From positions 1-64,000 of the forward strand of contig JBBPFI010000003.1 in the NCBI GenBank assembly GCA_037974965.1: 64,000 nt of DNA. The letters run 5' to 3'. The DNA is from Dacryopinax spathularia (Eukaryota; Basidiomycota; Dacrymycetes; Dacrymycetales; Dacrymycetaceae). Position numbers and translations under genes: made by a program. The notes under the pieces are model-generated. The model made no database searches. It was not told where the DNA came from and saw only the letters and a program-made list of their open reading frames with translations. Below are positions 1 through 50,505 of the stretch, one piece after another (within the stretch, counting starts at the first letter, position 1; each line of letters opens with the position of its first letter).

Positions 1-1087
1 GCGGGGGAGGAGGGCGATGGGATCTCCTTTCTTCGGTAAGCACCATATGCTGACCGTGTCCGTCCTGCAGACTGCGATTGGGCATTTGACCCGTGGCACG
101 CCTCCCGAGCTGCACGAGCAAGTGATCGGCTGGTTACGGGACGCCATGTGCCACGTGCTCAGGGCATCAAGGCTGAACATTGTGCCTTGGGCTGGTCGGC
201 GCGGTCTCTGGGCCAGTGCGCTTCACTGGATCCACATGGTCGATGACAACCCCTGGCAGGCCCAGTCCGGCCGCTATGTGCCTGCGGATGAAGACGAGTA
301 TGTGACGATGCAGATCCAGGCCGAACGCGACCGTGTCAACCCCCGGCCGCATGCCTGGAAAGCTCAGCTCCTGCCAACGCTCTGGTCGATTCCAACCTTC
401 CGCAGGGACCTGTCCGAGGAGATGAACATCGGCTTTGAAGAGCTCTGCAAGAGCGGGGGGCGTGGGGTGACAGGTGCGCAGTATCGACCGGCATTCGAGC
501 ACCTCCGTGCGCTCTTCGAGGAGCAGATCGAGACCGACCTGCACCAGTACATCCTATTCTGTGCCACACTGCTCTGCAAGATCCACCCATGATACCGATA
601 CATGGCGTCCAACCCAAACGCGCATCTCAACACAGTCAAGGATGCACGCAATGTGGTGAAGAACATGGTAATGCTGGTGCCGGAGCGTGCCGCAGGGACA
701 ACCCACGTGGGGATTGTGGCCACCTCGTTCATCGCCTGGCTGATGTACATGCTCTATGATCAGCAGGAGCATCTTGCCACGCATTGGGGGGTGACACATG
801 CGATGATGAAGACAAAGACCTGTGAGTGTGACTGGATACGGATGAATGCTCTGCTAATGACTGCAGCAAACCATGCCTTGCATTGGGGTCTGTTCGCATC
901 CTGGGGATTCTACACCGTCCTCAGCCCGCACAAGGACATGCTGGGTAAGCATGGTCCACGCCAGCGTCAAATGAACGGCATCAAATACTGGCGAATGGCC
1001 AAGCATAGCCAGACTGAAGCGCTCTGGAGGGAGATCAAGGACTGCTGGGAACGAGGACAGCACAAAGAAGGGCTACGGCATATCTAG
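1..1087 (+). CDS. Hypothetical protein, 5' cut by window edge
   Basis: Two long open stretches, 17-592 and 602-1087, lie in the same reading frame and are parted by a single TGA at 590-592. I read them as parts of one gene that enters from the left edge. A GTAAGC...CTGCAG intron fits at 36-70, a GTGAGT...CTGCAG intron of 45 bases starts just after the codons KTKT near 820, and an intron from about 561 to 635 would remove the TGA. The predicted protein is Trp- and His-rich (HWIHM, ALHWGLFASWGF), with one moderately hydrophobic segment (GIVATSFIAWLMYMLY). I recognise no family. It could also be two neighbouring genes or a decayed copy of a repeat gene, since it borders palindromes and a transposase relic. 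Confidence 0.4.
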
Positions 1088-1500
1088 TCGGATGCAGACA
1101 TTGCGCACTGGGAAGCTACAGGTATGTTGCAGCATCCTGCACAGTGCAATACGGGTGCAAGCCCAGACAAGAGGGCGACAGCGCAGCAACAGCATGCCCC
1201 GATGACGCAGGAGATGTTGCGTAATCTGACACGCAGCATGCACTCGTCCCGGCTCGAGCTGAACCCGCGTGGAGTCTAAGTCAGGAGCGGATAAAGGGAG
1301 CGCAACGAAATAAATGTAGAGGCTGTATATAAAGAAAGTATACCTTGTATTATAATGTATTATATGTATATTACGCTGTAGGTGGCCAGAGGTGGCCTTG
1401 GGAAGAGGCAGAGGACGATACGGTGCAACAGAGATGCAAGAGAGGGGTTAGGGGGATGGTGGATGTGCTGCGAGCATTGCAGTGTGCGCCTAACAAATGA
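1088..1500. other. Intergenic stretch, no gene seen
   Basis: No convincing open frame. An AT-rich patch near 1320-1375 (TATATAAAG, TATTATAATG, TATATGTATA) is the only notable composition change. It may be a terminator for the gene to the left or the edge of the repeat-rich block to the right. Confidence 0.4.
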
Positions 1501-1502
1501 CC

Positions 1503-1755
1503 CATGCCAACCCATCACGAGCTCACCTGCAAGCTTGTGATGGGTTGGGCCGCTTTTTTGCTTAGCACAGCCCCTTCACGAGCTTGCGCGCGAGCTCGTG
1601 ATGGGTTGGCACGTGTTTGAACCCATCACGAGCTCGCGCACAAAGAGGTGATGGGTTCGTAAGCGTTTTTCCATGACCTCGTCGCACGCAAGCTCGTGAT
1701 GGGTTCAAATGCGTGCCAACCCATCACGAGCTCGCCTGCAGGGAGGTGATGGGTG
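1503..1755. repeat. Cluster of five imperfect palindromes (CCATCACGAGCTC type)
   Basis: Five hairpin-forming units of about 36 bases share the arm sequence AACCCATCACGAGCTC and its complement GAGCTCGTGATGGGTT. They sit near 1507, 1571, 1621, 1670 and 1718, separated by unrelated spacers of about 15-25 bases. The inner loop varies around GCGCGCAAG. Some arms have drifted, for example AGAGGTGATGGGTT on the right side of units three and five. The spacing and the varied spacers speak against a CRISPR. The likeliest source is the end or subterminal region of a DNA transposon, since a Harbinger transposase relic begins 150 bases further on. Confidence 0.75.
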
Positions 1756-1902
1756 TTACAGATAGGGAGATAGGGAGGTTTGGGGCCACGTTTTTGGCGT
1801 ACCCTACCCTCAACCCCTATCCGTACTCACCCATAGACCCCTGTAGGATGGAGTCATCCTGACATGCAATTACTGTACTGCTATGCTATACTCATCCCTT
1901 AC

Positions 1903-2500
1903 TCATTCCCTAGTCATTCTGACATCTTCTGACACATTCTGACGCTTTCTGAGGTCTTCCAGAACCTCCCGTAGGAAGGGATAGCCTTTAGGCAATAGAA
2001 GCACTGGTTGAGCCGCCACAGGCATGTGGTGGTGATTGGGAGTCCAGGCTTCAGGGTCGAAAAAGGTGCATCCCCTGACAGTATCCCCACTTCTTTGAAA
2101 GAGCTCTTGCAAACCCCAATTCAACTCTCCTTTCCATATGGCAACTAGGAAAAGTGCAACTTGCTCATGTATCCCAACAAAACATGTAGCTTGGAGTCCA
2201 CTAATAACCACAAGCATCTGTTACAGCTTGATGAAAACATGCTTATGCATGCTCAAAGTATCCCAAATGTGTTATGCTGGTGCCACCAAAAGCTCTTCGA
2301 CCCATCTGGCACCAGTTTGGACAAAGATGTGACACAAAAGCTTGTCAGAATAATTCTTCTCATACAGCTCTGGCACAGCAGTGCTGGCACAAAGGGCTGC
2401 TATTCCAGCAAGATGGGCATGCTGTTGATGCAAGGAGTTTGTTGCTGCAATGTGAGGCATGGTGGTTGTATACAGCAGGATTCTCAGAAGCAACAGATAC
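1903..2500 (-). pseudogene. Decayed PIF/Harbinger-type transposase fragment
   Basis: Read on the minus strand, two fragments in order carry the N-terminal part of a DDE_Tnp4 (Harbinger) transposase. The first ends with GARWVEELLVAPA. The second has HEQVALFLVAIWKGELN followed by LQELFQRSGDTV, the usual helix-turn-helix region just before the catalytic domain. Stops separate the two pieces, for instance right after VAPA and before the codons for QMLVVISG. The DDE catalytic part is absent: after GDTV the frame runs into unrelated sequence. This is a truncated, inactive copy of a plain DNA transposon. I could not define its terminal repeats. Confidence 0.7.
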
Positions 2501-40668: not shown

Positions 40669-41390
40669 ATGTCTGACAGAGACGATGATATGGCACTTGA
40701 TGATGGTATGTTCGTACGATGTGCTATGAACAGCTAGGATGCTAATAGGTCTGATAGATCCGGGCAACGTCACCCGGAGAGGACGTGGTTTCCGCGGTGG
40801 TACGTGTTCCTTGTGAAGCAACGCATACATTTGGCTGACTGTATGGCTCAGGCACGTCGAGCGAACTGAACCGGACGGAGCAGTTCGACAGGCTGGAGAC
40901 TGGAGGTGGACGAGATGCAGATACAGGAAAAGCCGCGCGATGTGAGTCCCAGGATGTGAGTATGATTGTTGCGCTCTGACTGATGATTACTTCAGCGATC
41001 GAAGGATGGATCGTCTTTGTCACCGGTGTTCATGAGGAAGCCTCAGAGGAGGACATGCACGACAAGTTCGCCGACTTTGGCGAGATCAAGAACCTGCATC
41101 TCAACCTCGATAGGCGAACAGGTTTCGTGAAGGTACGTATATCGCCTTCCCGATCCGCTCCTTGTCTGACTCATCGGTCTTAGGGCTACGCTCTGGTGGA
41201 ATACGAGACATATCCCGAGGCGAAAGCTGCTATCGATGCTTGCAATGGCTCTACCTTGCTCGAGCAGGAGATCCACTGCGACTTTGCTTTCATGCGGGCA
41301 CCACAAAACACGAGAGGTCCGATGAGAGGCGGTCGCGGAGGTGGACCCGGACCAAGACAACGGGGTCGGAGTGTCAGTCCTGGTCGATGA
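40669..41390 (+). CDS. RBM8A: RNA-binding protein Y14/RBM8A, exon junction complex core
   Basis: Five exons (40669-40705, 40749-40799, 40852-40941, 40996-41132, 41184-41390) join in frame to 173 residues. The N-terminus is acidic and has a short RRGRGFRGG patch. The single RRM shows [18 protein letters not shown] (RNP2 region) and [20 protein letters not shown] then [15 protein letters not shown] (RNP1 region), with the YALVEYE variant typical of Y14. The tail is Arg/Gly/Ser-rich ([20 protein letters not shown]). Y14 pairs with Mago to lock eIF4A3 on spliced mRNA. Its presence fits the very intron-rich genes in this window. All five splice joins keep frame. Confidence 0.95.
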
Positions 41391-41779
41391 GACGTAGCTT
41401 GACCTTCGCCAATCGATTTTTCCCGACCCGTGCGGAAAGTGCGGATTGGAAATGGTCGGTCTGTGAGACTGGGCCGCCGGTGGTTACGTGTAGATCGGCC
41501 TGATCAAGATTGTCCTAATGTATCCAGAGCCGAATGTAATTCTTTTACCATGATGTCCATTCCAGCATTCTGCCATCGCTCAAGCTAAGGAAACAGAGGA
41601 CTTTGTAGGATAGAAAAGATCCTCAGCGCGTCTAACCACAAACTAAGACTCAATCAATGAGAATCAGCGGAAGTAAACAAGATCGATGCACGCGAAGTCG
41701 CGAACCCTCACGATAGCTCTCCGCGTCTCCCACTCACCACATACCCCTTTCACCGTTCAACACCCTCTACAGAAAAAAC
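41391..41779. other. Intergenic region between Y14 and the HP1 gene
   Basis: 389 bases holding the Y14 3' end and the promoter of the next gene. The leader just before 41780 is pyrimidine-rich (CACCATACCCCTTTCACC). No frame of note. Confidence 0.4.
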
Positions 41780-43074
41780 ATGGTCCGCTCACGGTCTGAC
41801 GAGGTCATCGCCGACTCCGAGGAAGAGCAAGATCCCAAGCCTTCCAGCAAGAAGTCCGCCACTGCTGCTGCTGCTGCTGCGTCGAAAGACCAAGATGAGG
41901 TGATGGAGGACGCCGAGGCCGAGGGAGGGGGAAACAGCGATGATGAGGACGAAGACGAGGATGGCGAGGAGGAGGAATATGAAATTGAGGCTATCTTGGA
42001 CTCGAAGATGGGAATGTTCAAGCCGGTACGTCTTACTTGTGCACTCTGGGCTTGCGCGTGAAGGTGCTGATTATCGTGGTAGCACGAATACGCCTACTTC
42101 GTCAAGTGGAAAGGGTACGACGAGTCTGAGAACAGCTGGGTAGCTCAGGAGGACGCTGTGTACGCTTACACTGCTCTCTACACACGTGCTGCGGCTCACA
42201 TGTATGTAATACAGAAATGCCCAAGAGCTGATCGACGAGTACTGGAAGACTAAGCCGAAGGGAGGGAGGATCCATCCAGTCGGCAAGAAACGGTCGACCC
42301 AGGGTGGCGGAAGCGTCAAGAAAGAGCGCGAGTCACTCAGTAACAAGCGCGAGCCCGTGTCTAGCAAGCGCGAGTCGAGCGTGAAGATCGAATCGTCTGC
42401 TCCGCGAAGGCGTAAATCTGGTACGTGCCGCAATTGTCGGCGTCCTGATTGCCATGGGTTGACAGCTCTTGTAGTCTCGAGACATGAGAGTGAGGATTCC
42501 GAGATTGAATTCATCGAGAAGGTGGATAAGCCCAAGAAGCGCTCCACATTGGTGACCGCTTCGTCCAAAGCGGCCAGGGCGAGCGAGGAGAAGAGCGACG
42601 AGGAGGACATGTTGAAGCCCGTTAAGAAGCTCAAGTCGAACGGCACGACGTCGAGCAGCGTGACGCGGACGCTCACGGACGAGAAGGAGGAAGCGGAGAG
42701 CGACGCGCTTGGTGCGACTGCGGTGGAAGACGAGGACGTCTATCCCACGCTGCCGGACATGGCGCCGTACATGAACAGGGACAATTGGGAACAGCTTGTG
42801 CAGAAGATCGATACCGTCGAGATGCAGCCTGACGGAACTCTTCGCATGTATTTGACGCTGTATGTTGCTGGCTTTGTTCGGTGGGCCGTATTGTTAACGT
42901 ATTTCCTAGTGATAACGGCCAGAAAGCCTCGCATGACGCCGCTGTCGTCCGGCAGCGCTGCCCACAGAAGGTCAGTCAAACTAGCAAGGACTTGAGATAT
43001 AGTGCTGATTCTGAAATTGCCAGGTTATCTCGTTCTACGAGAGTCATCTCCGCTGGAAGCAACCTCGTACATAG
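41780..43074 (+). CDS. HP1/Swi6-type heterochromatin protein
   Basis: Six exons (41780-42025, 42083-42159, 42215-42420, 42466-42859, 42910-42970, 43024-43074) join in frame to 344 residues. The N-terminus is acidic and has a seven-Ala run from a GCT microsatellite. The chromodomain reads EEEYEIEAILDSK, then HEYAYFVKWKGYDESENSW, with the aromatic cage residues Y, W and the Trp of NSW. A Lys/Ser-rich hinge follows. The C-terminal chromoshadow domain has NWEQLVQKIDTVEMQPDG, then DNGQKASHDAAVV, and ends VISFYESHLRWK, including the dimer-interface helix. HP1 binds H3K9-methylated nucleosomes through the chromodomain and dimerises through the shadow domain to build silent chromatin. Confidence 0.94.
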
Positions 43075-43360: not shown

Positions 43361-46300
43361 CTACAGCTCCTCATGATAGATATATGAAGAGATGCTGGAT
43401 GCCACTGAGGCTGCAGAGGAAGAGGCACGCTCGGTCACGGGCTTGGCAGTCTCTACACCAGCGGCAGATTTGACAGAGTCGGTGGCCTTCGTGAAGGTGG
43501 TATCCGCTTCAGATGCCAGCGAATCCAGGACGGAAAGCACAGAGGAGGCCGCACGCTCAGTGAGCGGCTTGGCGCTCTCCACACCGACGGCGGACTTGAC
43601 TGAGTCAGTCGCGCTTGCCAAATTGTCTCCGACCTCAGCAGCGAGCGACTCGAGAACGGCGGCTACAGACGCGACGCTGTCCGTTGCCCTCGCAGACAAC
43701 GAGCTGACGGTCTCGGCCAGGTTTTCAGGCGATGGTGTCACACCAACGGCTCCGAGTACGGTCCTTGTTCCTTGATGAAGGGCCGACGAAGCGGAGTCGT
43801 AGGCCGTGTTGGCCGTGTCAGAAGCCTTTGAAGCGAGAGACGACGCTTGTTCCGATGCCACTGAAGCAGCCGATGCTGCGGAGGCCGAAGCAGCAGATCC
43901 AGCCGACACCAGCGTATCATATGCAGCAGTCGCAGCAGCGGATGCCTTGTCGTTTCCATCCGATGCCACACTGCTGGCTTGTGCAACGACGCTTTCGTAA
44001 TGTTCACCGAAGGTCTCAGGGGTAGGAGTGCCGCCCATGGCCTTGTAAGCAGAACGGGTCGCCGAGTGTGCACTGGAGTACAGGCTGTCGACAACCTCGC
44101 CTGCTACGGCACCAGCGCCTACAACGGCTTCGGACACCTGAGCAACAACACTCTCGTAATGTTCCTTCAGGCTTTCTGGCTCAGGAGTACCGCCTGCGGC
44201 CTTGATAACGGACCGTGTTGCGTGGTGTACGCCTTGCGAGGCTGCGTCGACGATACTCTCGATGTGCTCGCCGAACGTTTCCGGAGTCGGTGTACCGCCC
44301 GCGGCCTTGATGACAGTTCGAGTCGCCTGATGCAGCGCGGAAGAACCGGCATCGTAAACACTCTCGGCGAGATTTGTTGCACCGCCGGCGACCTCCTCGA
44401 TAGCGGAGGAAGCACTGGCGAGGATCTCTTCCACGCGAGCTTGTACTTCCTCAGTGCTTGGAACCCGGTCCGCAACGTTCGCCGCTGCGGAAGATGCAGA
44501 CGCATACGCGGCATTAGCGCTCTTGGAAGCAGCTTCAGCCAGACTGGAGGCGTGCTCCGACAGATTTTCCGGTGATGGAGTTGCTCCGACTGCTTTAAGG
44601 AGGGTTCGCGTGCCATCATGCACCGCGTCCCCAACCACGGCATACGCTGCCTGAGCCTGCGCCTTGGCAAAGTCGTAGTACTCCTCAGCCGTCTCGGGCG
44701 TAGGACTCGCCCCAGCCGCGCTCATCACCGAACGCGTGGCCTTATGAAGGTTCTCTTGCACGTTGGATGTTGCGGCTCCATAGGCACTTTCGACGACAGA
44801 TGAGGCGGAGCTGGCTACAGATTGTGCCTTTCCAACGAGGCTTTCGTAGTGCTCATGGAGGCTCTCTGGGGAAGGCGTCCCTCCGGCAGCTTTGACGACG
44901 GTACGGCTCGCATCATGCGCCAGACTGCTGGCGCCTTCATAGACAGCCTGAGCTTTGTCTGCAGCATAGCCACGGACGTAGTCGTAAAACTCCTCGGCCG
45001 TCTCGGGCGTCGGAGTGGCACCAGCAGCCTTCATAACCGTACGTGTTGCTTGGTGGATATTTTCGTAGACGTTGGACGTGGCGGCACCGTAGACGCTTTC
45101 AACAACAGACGAAACGGAGCTGAGAGTATCTTGAGCAGCAGCCGCGACGTTGTCAACGTGATCCTGCAGGCTCTCGGGAGAAGGCGTGCCACCGGCAGCC
45201 TTGACAACGGACCGGCTGGCATCGTGCGCGACACTCCTGGCATGGTCGTACGCGACTTGTACCTTCTCGCCGGCCTGAGCCTTAGCGAAGTCGTAGTACT
45301 CCTCCACAGTTTCCGGGGAAGGAGTAGCACCGACGACCTTACTTGCAGTCCTGGTAGCAGAATGCCAGGTGTCTTGTGCGTTCTCGAGAATGTCACTCGC
45401 TGCGGCGCTCGCTGCTGACTGGGCATCCTTTAGTGCCCGCTCGACCTCTTCCTTGCTGCGCTTGAGGTAGGCTTCCGCGCCAACATCTTGCGCCATAGCC
45501 CCAGGAATGAACAAGGGAGCTTGTGGCTTCTCATCGACAAGATCGGGCGAGACGAGGGGATCCTTGTCTTCGGCACCGGAGACGGGTGGATCGGCGAAAG
45601 GATGAATCAAGGCCAGGCGCGCTTCGAAGCCCAGAAGTACATCTTGGATATGAGACGTAAGCTCGGCGAGAGCCTTGTAAAGAGGAGAGTCTTCCGTGAG
45701 ATACAAAAGGTCACGGTAAGTCTTGCCGTATTGGTTGGCATCTATCGATCCTTCATTAGCTATTGCCTCTAGCGTGAGAGAAGAAGGGACGAACCATCAA
45801 CCAGAGCATGATAGCGCTTCCAATCTTGTGCAGTAACGTCCTCCAGCCAGGCATATTTCATGCCAAGCTCGTTCTGCGCTTCGGCAGCGATATCCATAAC
45901 ATCCTTTTCGGCTTTCTCGACCTGGAGCAAAATTAGCTTGCAGCCGCATAAGCAGTGATTTGGAGCACTCACATCAGCGATGATACCAGCTTCAGATCCG
46001 GTCCACCAAGTCTTGAGCTTCGACTCCACATCCCCAGCCCAACGCTCGACCTGGTCTCGGACCTTAGCCACGACGTCCCGCAGCATCTGCGTTTTCTCAG
46101 CAGCAGGTCTATCCTCGTTCCGCAGCTTGCTGGCATATCTTTGAAAAAAATTAGATGCTGATCGCAGGAAAGACATGTGCCGGACTCACCGCTCTACCCC
46201 CTCCACAACACGCCCCACTTCCTTCTCATACGCCGCAACATCCTTCCCCCACTGCCCCCCATCCTCACCCAGCAGCTTATCGCTGCTCGCCTTCCTAACC

Positions 46301-48751
46301 TTCTCGATCTCCCTCGTCAGCCTCTCGACCCCTCCCTGGCCAATCGCATGCAGCATCTCCTCCCACTTATTATGGCTCGCTTCGATCTCTTTCCTCTTCT
46401 CGGCGATTTCCTCATCGCTCGGCCGTTTATACTTGGGTCGCGAGGTCTCTTCCGGTATTTCGGCAGGAACGGAAGCCTCAGCGATGGGAGAAGGCGGGAG
46501 CGCAGTTTCTGTACCGACAGCTTTGGCACCGTCGTCCTCCCCCAGGAGACTGGCGAACCAGGCTTCGAAGTCGTCCTTGGCCAGATCGGCAACTTCGGCG
46601 GGATCTTCAGCAGGTGTGAGCTTGCCGAGCAGGTCGGCGATTTCAGCTGCGGCTGCCTCGGGGCTGGTCTCGTGGATCCCGACAGCTTCACGGGCGTCCT
46701 GAAGTTTGGCGGAGAGGGATGCGCTAGCGGCTGAAGCGGAAGATTGAGCTAGGGCCGCTACCAATGCTGCTTGGGATTGATAGGCTGCGGCAAGGGAGGC
46801 GAGAGATGCTGACGCAGCGGCAGCAGCGTCGTTAACATTAGCAGAAGCGGATGCAGCGAGTTCTGCAGCGGTGGCTTGCGCAGATGCAGCGGCCTCAGAG
46901 GCGCTGGAAGCGGCGAGGGCTGCTTTGGAGTAGGCGGACGAAGCGAGAGCAGCTGCTTTGAAGTAGATTTGAGGTGGGACTTCCAGGGCAGCATCTTCGA
47001 GCTCGCTCGCATATGTAGTTGCGGCCGCCGCAGCGTGGGAAACAGCGGAAGACGCGTCCGAGGCGAAATCTGCGGCCGAAGACGAAGCGGCAGAAGCGAT
47101 GGAAGCGACGTATTCCGATGCCGTGCTCGAGGCGGACGAGGCGGCGGAACTGGCAGTGGCGAGGACCGAGGACGCAGACTCGGAGACGGTAGAGGCGGCA
47201 GATGCGACATACTCTGACGCGGTGCTCGATGCCGATACGGCAGCTGCACTGGCGGTGGCTGCGACCTTTGAAGCGGACTGTGAAACGGTAGAGGCTTTAT
47301 CCGCGACTACACTGGCAGCGTCGCTTACGAAGCCAGCAGCAGTATACGAAGCGTGGGAAGCGGCGTCTGCAGCCGACTCAGAAGCAGCAGACGCGGCGTT
47401 GACGACCGCCTCAGAGGCCTTGTGGCTCGCACTCGCGCCAGAGGCAGAGATGCTCGTTCCGGTAGCTTGAGCGGCGCTAGTAATGCTGGAAAGCTTGTCC
47501 TGGACAACAGAAACGTATTCGGACGCGACGGATTGCACAGCAGACGCAGCAGCCATGACCGAAGCTTGTGCTTGCGCTGCAAACCCACTCGCTTGGCTCT
47601 GCACGACTGAGGCGGCAGATGAAGCGGTAGTCTGAGCTGCAGCAGCGGCAGAGGAGGCGGAGCTTGAAGCGGCGGACAGAGTGGACTTGGCCTGATCCTT
47701 GAGCGAAGGTGTCTTTTCAACTGTTATAGGGCTCATCTTCCCGACTTCGCCCACGATCTTATCCCAGTGAGGCTTGATGTAGACGTCGAACAAGGCAGCA
47801 ATGGGGATAGCCGCGCTCGCTCGCTTAGCCAGAACCTTGATGCGAAGCCATAACGCATACACATGCGGCCTGATCTTGTCGTACCCCTGAATGAGAGCGA
47901 CTCGAGCACGAAGGACATGCGGCGAAGCGACGGTGACTGCATGATGTGCTTGAGCGCGGAGCGCGAGCCAACGAGGGCTAATATGTTCGCGTTGAACATC
48001 AAGTGCTTGCCGCCAATAAGGATCGACGGCGGCGGAGACCTTGGCTGCATAGGGCTCGACATATGGCTTGGCGGCGGTCGACGCTTGGGCGTATGCGAGC
48101 GACGAGTACTGGTTCGCCTTCTCGACCACGGGGATGAGGTATCCACGCGCTGTAGACCGAACCGAACTGACATAGGGCGTGACGTAGTTGTACGCATTCT
48201 CGACGTGTTGCGCGTATGGGCCGACTTGAGGGTGAGAAGCGATCGTATTCCAAGCAGATTGGACATGGGGCTCGATGAAGGGGTTGTAGATATCGGTATG
48301 TGCGCGTGCCAAGAGAGTGCAAGGACCGGTGATGGGTTCGTTTGCGGACGTGTTCGTGAGAGGGCACAGGAAGGTGTATGCGGCAAGGGTTAGGAAGGAT
48401 AGGCGAAGTAGGACGGATAGAAGAGAGGGTCGAGGTTTCGCCTTCATTTTCGGTGTTGCTTTTGACTTCGTTACTGCCTTCGACTTCGGAGGCGTCTGGT
48501 GAAAAATAAGCTATGCTCGAAAGCAGTATTGGACTGGTACTCACCACGAACGTGACATTGTCCGTGAACTCTGGCCCCGAGCGAGCATGTTTAGATGTGC
48601 CGTTTGGCACTTTGCTCTCCAGAATGACCGGTTTTGTCTCCTCGATTTCCCCATTCAGGTTCGGTGTTGACGCAGAAGCCGAAGACTGCCTCGACAGCTT
48701 GGCCGATGCTGACCTCGTCGTTGGTGGCCTCGAGGGCGTTTTTGGTGGCAT
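43361..48751 (-). CDS. Giant Ala/Ser-rich amphipathic repeat protein, one gene, function unknown
   Basis: Five exons (48751-48545, 48495-46190, 46138-45973, 45921-45795, 45741-43361) join in frame to about 1,728 residues. Residues 1-85 are Ser/Pro/Lys-rich. A membrane segment or signal anchor follows near 93-112 (LLSVLLRLSFLTLAAYTFLC). Residues 120-330 form helices with HVQSAWNTIASHPQVG-like units. Residues 340-650 are an Ala/Ser run with repeats of TASEYVASAASTVSESAS type. A non-repetitive middle spans three exons (WWTGSEAGIIADV, EAQNELGMKYAWLEDVTAQD). The last exon has at least ten copies of a core like ATRTVhKAAGGTPTPETxEE (h, hydrophobic), spaced 35-95 residues. The periodic Ala-rich helices recall lipid-binding or LEA-type proteins, but no named family is claimed. 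Two genes here is the alternative. I prefer one, because each intron is clean and in frame. Confidence 0.85.
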
Positions 48752-49915
48752 GATTTGATGTCGTCCTCTCTTGTGTTGAGGTACGATAGGTACAGTAGGT
48801 AGGCGGAGAAGGTGCTCGAGATGTTTCCTCAGGGATTTCTCAAGGTATCGATGACCGCTGAGCGGGAGCAATGGGGAACGCAGCTGAAAAGGGGGTTCCA
48901 CGATGAGGTCACTGCACGTCAGTATGGCACAGCCACAATCCACGTCCGCGATCAACAATCAACGTCGTCGCTTCATGGTTGTTTATCATCTCGCCTCGAG
49001 GCTCAGCTTGGACCTGGGGTACTTGCGATCGTTACCGGGCTTCTCACTGGTCTGTAATTGTCAACTCAACACCTTCTCGCGGGCTGGGCTGGGCTACCTT
49101 GATACTGATGGGATGAGGGGCTTCGTTCTTCGTGGGCTGACAGCCTCAACGCGCGACTATTTCCCCTCGGCAGAAGTGCCTGGCGGACTGCATGGAGCCG
49201 CGACGCTTTCATATGCTCTGGACAAGCATGGTGCCTCCCACGCTACAGTAGACTCGAATCAGCAACCACCGGAATTATGCTGTCATGCGCTGCTCTCAAT
49301 GGTCTCCACTTTTGGACTCATAGCTGCATGGGCTCTGCTCGGGTGCGCTCATTGACTTCATACGACCTCTCCTCAGAATCGCTCGCGTACCTCGACCATC
49401 TCCTGCTCCGAAAGGCTGTCATTCTGACCGAAGTCGAGAATCCCGGAGAAACCGGGCGTCGTACAAGTTCCTCCAGCACTGTTGACGAGCCGCAATTCAG
49501 ATGTACCAAATTTAATCCCAAATCGGCATAGATGTCTCTGCATGATGTAGACAAGCTCTGATGATGACGCACATCCCGCCTTCTCGCGCTTGAACGCCTG
49601 ATGCAGCCTGTTTGTCTCCACCTCTCTCCACTTGCATGAGCCTGCCGACTGTACTTCAATGCCGGCGCGACGTGGAGGAGCTCGTACACGTGTGGAGAGG
49701 CCTTGCTCGGGCGAGAAGGCATGGTCGTCGTCACCTGTGCGTAGGCCGAAGACGTCGGGAGCTGCAACAGAAGTGTGGATACCGCCAGGAATCCTAAACC
49801 TCGTCCTGCCCAGGAAACGTATATATAACCGGCTCGAAGGCGACCTCCACTGCTCTTTCGAGCTCCCACGAAGGCCCTGTAATCCAAATCTCAACTTCGA
49901 ATCGTTCTATCCAAC
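48752..49915. other. Intergenic region with overlapping weak frames
   Basis: About 1.2 kb between the repeat-protein promoter and the first secreted-protein gene. Two overlapping minus-strand frames lie at 49318-49887 and 49373-49894, the latter ending GILDFGQNDSLSEQEMVEV. Neither has a firm start or family. A TATATATAA box at about 49830 lies roughly 80 bases before the ATG at 49916. I treat the right part as promoter. Confidence 0.35.
49829..49839 (+). promoter_or_regulatory. TATA box of the first secreted-protein gene
   Basis: CGTATATATAACC lies about 80 bases upstream of ATG 49916. The two paralogues downstream have comparable elements at similar distance. Confidence 0.6.
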
Positions 49916-50505
49916 ATGAAGCTCATCAGCTTGCTTCTCTTGACTATCTTTTCGGCAACTGCTGCTCTCGCCATCCCAGCTCCATCCCTCCCTCGCAGGG
50001 GCTTGACGAAGCGGGGTCTCACTGTTGACACGCCGGCCGAGCTGGTCACGTGCGGTAAGCACACCGCCTTCCCTGAATCGCCTACAACCGTACTCATACA
50101 CCTCGTAGAAACGGCCGAGCTAGCATGGTCGGGCGGAGTGGCGCCCTACTATGTAGCCATCATCCCCGGAGGAGATGCCGGAGCCTCACCAGTACGTCCT
50201 GCGCTGTCCGTCGGCGAATGCTCGATACTCATCAGAGACAGCTCGAGTCTTTCACAGTGGACGCAACAAGCTACGAGTGGACTGTCAATCTCGCCGCTGG
50301 AACTTATATGTAAGGCAAATACTCCCGAGACGTCTGAAGATGTTATGACCTCGTCTTGGTAGAGCGATCGAAGTTAGGGATTCTGAAGGCTATGTGGGCT
50401 TCTCCGCAGCGGTGAGTGTGATTCTCGTCTGCTATGAAAAGGACGGAAGTTGAGCTATTGGTACAGGAAACGATCCAAGCCGGCACGAGCACGAGCTGTC
50501 TGTAA
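49916..50505 (+). CDS. Small secreted protein, Kre9/Knh1-like fold, paralogue 1 of 3
   Basis: Five exons (49916-50054, 50109-50191, 50242-50309, 50363-50411, 50467-50505) join in frame to 125 residues. A signal peptide (MKLISLLLLTIFSATAALA) is followed by a pro-like stretch with two KR-type dibasic sites (RRGLTKRGL). The mature part starts VDTPAELVTCETAELAWSGG and continues VAPYYVAIIPGGDAG, LESFTVDATSYEWTVNLAAG, AIEVRDSEGYVGFSAA and ends TSTSCL. This is the beta-sandwich pattern of the Kre9/Knh1 N-terminal (Ser-Thr-rich GPI protein) domain, here alone and without a GPI tail. One Cys at the start and one at the end may form a disulphide. It is likely a wall or effector-type secreted protein. 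Confidence 0.85.

Follow-up and report, generated by a model that had tools for sequence, protein, structure and literature searches.

The 64,000-nucleotide stretch analysed here (positions 1 to 64,000 of the Dacryopinax spathularia contig JBBPFI010000003.1, hereafter the window) carries a gene for a protein of 1,728 residues, which we tentatively read, at a probability of roughly 0.4, as a structural protein resident in the endoplasmic reticulum (ER), one that would act in the manner of animal CLIMP-63 or coat the luminal face of the membrane. The terminal HEEL, the basic N-terminal tail and the single hydrophobic segment together predict that a body of ~1,600 residues lies inside the ER lumen, in disfavour of a cytosolic lipid-droplet coat or a stress chaperone. 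Location in the ER is considered probable; a function as spacer, scaffold or coat, proposed by analogy, is held with less assurance and falls somewhat short of even odds. The HEEL ending had been overlooked in the initial annotation of this DNA, and the ER lumen as the likely compartment changes the interpretation given there. The parts of the protein are as follows.

43364..43375, minus strand: the last four residues, HEEL (1725-1728), an ER retrieval signal of KDEL type
48364..48429, minus strand: predicted signal-anchor segment (residues 92-113), from hydropathy and the basic residues before it
47725..48363, minus strand: N-domain (residues 114-326) with Pro, Tyr and Trp, delimited by composition and predicted to be luminal
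46603..47724, minus strand: Ala/Ser region with an 11/33-residue rhythm (residues 327-700), from periodicity and composition
45578..46602, minus strand: non-repetitive charged middle domain (approximately residues 701-990), split by introns 2-4, with no Pfam family over cut-off
43658..45415, minus strand: repeat units TRxxxKAAGxTPxPE, ten in number (residues 1045-1630), with units 1-6 forming three paired super-repeats

The HEEL ending conforms to the KDEL-type C-terminal pattern (K/R/H/Q/S/A)(D/E/N/Q)EL, a tetrapeptide class that served to find fungal ER proteins in the relevant part of PMC5430845. From the protein's own composition, the chance of an ending of the form [KRHQSA][DENQ]EL is 3.5e-4, and that of [HK][DE]EL is 3.6e-5. 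In Magnaporthe oryzae, which causes rice blast, a signal peptide-GFP-HEEL fusion co-localized with a dye for the ER (a passage of PMC5430845), and a section of PMC8248988 counts both HEEL and HDEL among the canonical signals of human FKBP proteins. The genome itself contains one match to a KDEL-receptor gene (E 3.9e-60). A scan of 36 loci (L003-L038) for [DE]EL endings yielded four genes. In two of them the ending, HDEL (L008) or RDEL (L016), stands next to an Hsp70 match; a PDI-type frame ends in HDEL (L026 and L028, which are one gene), and a frame of 31 residues close to a thioredoxin match ends in KDEL (L033). The HDEL frame of L008 and the RDEL frame of L016 were taken, unspliced, as last exons, since each lies shortly downstream of its Hsp70 match, in the same orientation.

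Of all 19-residue windows, residues 94-112 have the highest hydropathy (mean 1.84), in agreement with the membrane segment placed near residue 100 in the initial annotation. The basic tail that precedes the hydrophobic segment is 91 residues long, and its last 25 (residues 67-91) include 8 Lys/Arg and no Asp/Glu. According to the positive-inside rule a basic flank stays cytosolic; the tail is therefore predicted to be cytosolic and the body luminal. A hydrophobic segment with basic residues before it is compatible with either an anchor or a signal peptide that is cleaved off; whether translation starts at Met1 or at Met86, the body is predicted to be luminal.

In the proposed mechanism, segment 92-113 would bring the protein into the ER while the basic 91-residue tail stays in the cytosol, and the luminal body would form a chain of long alpha-helices, interrupted at Gly-x-Thr-Pro-x-Pro-Glu turns. 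The helicity of this body is suggested by periodicity, helix-type periods having been found in the Ala/Ser, middle and repeat regions. Anchored in the membrane and, as proposed, associating with one another, the helices could then space or scaffold ER cisternae from within the lumen, like animal CLIMP-63; alternatively, they may coat the luminal leaflet. CLIMP-63 (CKAP4) consists of a basic cytosolic tail, one membrane segment and a long helical luminal part. The studied protein shares with it a basic (predicted cytosolic) tail, a single predicted membrane segment and a very long, apparently helical, predicted luminal body, and a luminal scaffold or spacer is therefore proposed, without a claim of kinship. 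Unlike CLIMP-63, it has HEEL at its end and repeats of two kinds (Ala/Ser of 11 residues, and TPxPE), and it is far longer; the analogy is one of how the two would work. CLIMP-63 is described as a helical, self-associating luminal spacer of the animal ER in the abstract of PMC7308479. Of the roles proposed initially, that of an organelle tether survives in luminal form, the HEEL ending and the basic-flanked hydrophobic segment predicting a place for the repeats in the ER lumen.

Several observations weigh against an anchored, ER-retained luminal scaffold. If the true start were Met86, the hydrophobic segment may be a cleaved signal peptide, and anchoring would then fail. Stretched out in full, the helices would be much longer than the ER lumen is usually wide, and they would therefore have to fold back. 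Structure models of residues 110-330 and 1137-1345 were drawn as helices but at very low confidence (predicted local distance difference test, pLDDT, 41.6 and 42.4, respectively), and both predictions are too poor to use. None of the four [DE]EL ends found among the 36 loci of the genome is HEEL. Moreover, contrary to the expectation of its authors, one passage of PMC5430845 reports that the wild type secreted more HDEL- and HEEL-tagged GFP than did the receptor mutant. The number of luminal glycosylation sequons (2, versus 5.2 expected; P 0.08) speaks neither for nor against retention in the lumen.

In the last third of the protein, where the repeat region extends to residue 1728, the core turn G.[TS]P.PE was found ten times, while in 2,000 shuffles it appeared 0.0015 times on average and once at most, which bears out the earlier count of at least ten units. 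Unit starts are spaced by 46, 57, 46, 57, 42, 96, 35, 53 and 97 residues, and the three super-repeats measure 103, 103 and ~99 residues, the third being 4 residues shorter; the corresponding DNA spacing is 309 nucleotides, and the best self-match lag of the repeat region is 103. A hidden Markov model (HMM) of the unit scored the ten units at 73-84 bits, as expected by construction because the HMM was built from them, and it detected one decayed stretch (residues 1629-1656) at 2.7 bits.

Comparison of super-repeats 1 and 2 over 103 codons yielded a synonymous divergence (Ks) of 2.66, a nonsynonymous divergence (Ka) of 0.41 and a Ka/Ks ratio of 0.15; between super-repeats 2 and 3, compared over their first 41 codons, Ka was 0.13 and Ks was beyond measure. 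In all 45 unit pairs (35 codons each) the nonsynonymous difference was smaller than the synonymous one (means of 0.37 versus 0.76). Since the 45 pairs are drawn from ten shared sequences and are not independent, and since Ks is at or near saturation, these Ka/Ks values are only rough. Synonymous sites near saturation combined with constrained amino-acid sites make the repeats look old and selected, and they are best read, from the sequence, as old copies held by purifying selection at the protein level.

In the first half of the protein a separate Ala/Ser repeat had been noted initially, and its rhythm could be defined. The region (35% Ala, 23% Ser) has a polar-residue period of 3.66 (11/3) with a power of 36.3, which was reached by none of 200 shuffles (sampled at every second period), and its best self-match lags are 33, 11 and 66. 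Charged residues constitute 11% of the region, and the net charge of residues 327-700 is -17. The hydrophobic moment, calculated on the Fauchere-Pliska scale that is also used by Heliquest, was 0.177 for the same residues, above the maximum of 0.133 among 200 shuffles.

These properties bear on the lipid-surface role that had been suggested initially, in its most concrete form a coat of 33-residue-rhythm helices on the cytosolic side of lipid droplets, similar to perilipin 4 (Plin4). The 11/33-residue repeat helix is a trait shared with perilipin 4 as presented in part of PMC5889406, as is an amphipathic helix that is weak and poor in bulky residues, and the moment does exceed that of all 200 shuffles. 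However, the moment of 0.177-0.200 is lower than the 0.257 of Plin4, which a passage of PMC5889406 calls the smallest of known lipid-binding helices. The Plin4 polar face is slightly positive (+1 per 33-mer), in contrast to the net -17 of the studied region, and Plin4 made negative left droplets unless its hydrophobicity was raised (both from the excerpted text of PMC5889406). Aromatic residues account for 3.2% of the studied region versus 0.2% in perilipin 4, in the portion of that paper concerned. In addition, HEEL and the topology place the region, predicted to be luminal, on the wrong side of the membrane for droplets. A cytosolic droplet coat was thus ranked low on HEEL, acidic charge and weak moment, and is regarded as very unlikely; of the original lipid-surface idea, the resemblance of the 11/33 rhythm to such helices stands, while the location, the weaker moment and the more negative charge than in perilipin 4 speak against it.

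The other suggestion made initially, a desiccation-type chaperone resembling late embryogenesis abundant (LEA) proteins, has in its favour the Ala-richness and the 11-residue rhythm. LEA group 3 proteins, however, are strongly charged, in contrast to the 11% of charged residues in this region, and no LEA family appeared among Pfam matches at E up to 1. The suggestion was accordingly weakened, and on grounds of charge it was ranked low, as a highly improbable explanation.

By eye, the proline-punctuated helices of the protein resemble those of apolipoproteins A1/A4/E and apolipophorin-III. Weak Pfam matches were obtained to Apolipoprotein in the middle domain (E-value 0.0019; 18.4 bits versus a cut-off of 90) and to ApoLp-III in exon 2 (E-value 0.0095; 16.5 versus 36.3 bits). 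Of 14 prokaryote controls, 13 likewise gave matches to the Apolipoprotein model that stayed under the cut-off, and the studied gene was absent from the four matches of this model in its own genome. Membership in PF01442 was rejected, the best score of 18.4 bits being below the curated 90.

Elsewhere in the genome, the best match of the Apolipoprotein model was to locus L003 (contig 15, ~764364-764660; E 2.6e-7, 34.4 bits, again under the 90-bit cut-off), a long open frame (1-1965, plus strand) with repeats like EVHExxVQPxxxxAxxKA. It encodes another helical repeat protein, whose Pro-spaced helices resemble, by eye, those of the studied N-domain.

The unusual build recognized in the initial annotation, without a characterized counterpart, was upheld in that neither Pfam nor NCBIfam gave a match over any curated cut-off. 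Matches below cut-off on exon 5 included Rrn6_HB (E 0.0031) and Phasin (E 0.0055). The collections searched for relatives were viral, prokaryotic or plasmid, in addition to the own genome: the middle domain had no match in viral contigs or, by tblastn, in plasmids, and the exon-5 piece gave eight pattern matches in genome contigs, none of which was confirmed. Given the nature of these collections, the misses say nothing about fungi. The PDB was searched by sequence with the middle domain (two weak matches, best E 0.015), with residues 110-394 (one match, E 0.69) and with the repeat profile (six matches, the best at E 0.0019 to the chain 'Spike protein S2',5HB-H2', with no stretch passing alone); the Ala/Ser region past residue 394 lay outside this search. 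We take the PDB matches to reflect helix composition. Within the searches named, whose fungal sequences were those of the own genome, no described family was found. Some fungal proteins of similar look may bear the misnomer hoxa13; among the papers found on hoxa13, none concerned fungi by its title, and none linked it to basidiomycetes.

A different kind of ER protein deserves consideration, namely a distant relative of She10/Osw7 that aids spore or cell-wall assembly from the secretory pathway, the repeats being a lineage-specific extension. She10 consists, in order, of an N-terminal membrane segment, a Pro-spaced helical domain, a low-complexity linker and a helical domain, an order that matches the studied protein. 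When compared with unverified She10 letters, the N-domain scored above 297 of 300 shuffles, over just 24 columns, whereas for the middle domain 57 of 300 shuffles were as good; the crossed domain comparisons with the same letters gave 39/300 and 273/300. The Ala/Ser region, the ten units and HEEL are without counterpart in those letters. Basidiomycetes are not known to have dityrosine walls, which does not favour the relationship, and no literature joining She10 with basidiomycetes was found. On the supporting side, She10 co-purifies with ER membranes and is enriched with them (in part of PMC11021466), and dityrosine is absent from osw7 she10 mutants, whose spore walls are permeable and whose outer walls are defective (in passages of PMC3744438 and PMC5753156). 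A review passage, on the other hand, notes that SGD labels SHE10 an orphan gene (PMC12684174). The relationship is possible but rather doubtful, and the link to She10/Osw7 is a lead only, not a test. If the studied protein were a relative, a yeast spore-wall gene labelled as an orphan (in the same excerpt of PMC12684174) would join a wider fungal ER family.

Another possibility is that the protein is a matrix component of the septal pore cap found in mushroom-type fungi. A section of PMC2695808 assumes that this cap derives from the ER, two known septal-pore-cap proteins lack a known motif according to a portion of PMC8893723, and the hydrophobin and STE3 matches of the genome fit a basidiomycete; the organism, however, may lack septal pore caps, and this role appears quite unlikely. 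Returning to the CLIMP-63-like reading, its boldest form would have the fungal ER possess a giant luminal scaffold of its own, anchored and HEEL-retained, whose repeats space cisternae, coat the leaflet or build the septal-pore-cap matrix, an unrelated protein thereby filling the role of CLIMP-63. We consider this unlikely.

The gene model on which the above depends comprises the following elements.

48751-43361, minus strand: whole gene in five exons, with ATG at 48751 and stop codon at 43361-43363, encoding 1,728 amino acids
48545..48751, minus strand: exon 1 (residues 1-69), holding the start codon and the greater part of the N-tail, which is basic and rich in Ser/Pro, from a GT donor and an in-frame join
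46190..48495, minus strand: exon 2, with the remainder of the N-tail, the hydrophobic segment, the N-domain, the Ala/Ser region and the start of the middle domain, from splicing and codon frame
45973..46138, minus strand: exon 3, from splicing and codon frame
45795..45921, minus strand: exon 4, from splicing and codon frame
43361..45741, minus strand: exon 5, with the end of the middle domain, the repeat region and the stop codon, from splicing and codon frame

Splicing of the four GT..AG introns (49, 51, 51 and 53 nucleotides) produces a single open frame of 1,728 residues, and the one long protein proposed initially was thereby retained. The middle domain, correctly described as non-repetitive, occupies not three exons but four: the end of exon 2, exons 3 and 4 and the start of exon 5. 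Against a codon-usage reference of 14 other long open reading frames (ORFs) of the window (6,778 codons), the frame of the model ranked first of six in all five exons. With a smaller five-ORF reference it was the best of six for exons 2-5 and not for exon 1, but that reference was flawed, L008 having been entered as a 571-residue antisense frame instead of the 521-residue Hsp70 frame. Because of this antisense frame, the 14-ORF reference was relied on. The gene looks real; exon 1, and hence the start (Met1 or Met86), is the least certain part of the model.

It is hardly likely that the model is wrong, either with the exon-5 repeat protein as a separate gene or with Met86 as the start. Exon 5 alone does sit within an 811-residue open frame, and a start at Met86 would, in our own reading, make the hydrophobic segment resemble a cleavable signal peptide. 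The four well-formed short introns nevertheless preserve the frame, codon support extends to all five exons, and a separate exon-5 gene would bear HEEL without any signal for entry into the ER. The two-gene reading was rejected, as splicing and codon frame argue for one gene. Searches of the genome (29.2 Mb, 24 contigs) with the exon-2 and exon-5 frames matched only the gene itself, which is single-copy. Being single-copy, under selection and apparently kept in the ER, this giant helical protein offers a concrete candidate for a structural role.

Some further observations concern the surroundings of the gene and the genome. Upstream of the gene, an open frame on the plus strand (49883-50359 of the window) begins, by eye, like a small secreted protein and matched no Pfam family at E-values up to 0.1. 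The convergent neighbour on the plus strand (41717-42992) contains an acidic stretch and, by eye, a piece resembling the start of a chromodomain; its two frames gave no Pfam match over cut-off. Beyond it (40980-41390, plus strand) an RRM domain is encoded in two pieces in neighbouring frames (E 4.3e-6 and 7.8e-6), in a gene that we take to resemble the exon-junction protein Y14/RBM8A. Three hydrophobin matches were found in the genome. On contig 9 (379541-391317), two clusters of matches to STE3 pheromone receptors lie on opposite strands, ~10 kb apart, and possibly represent the mating-type pheromone-receptor locus.

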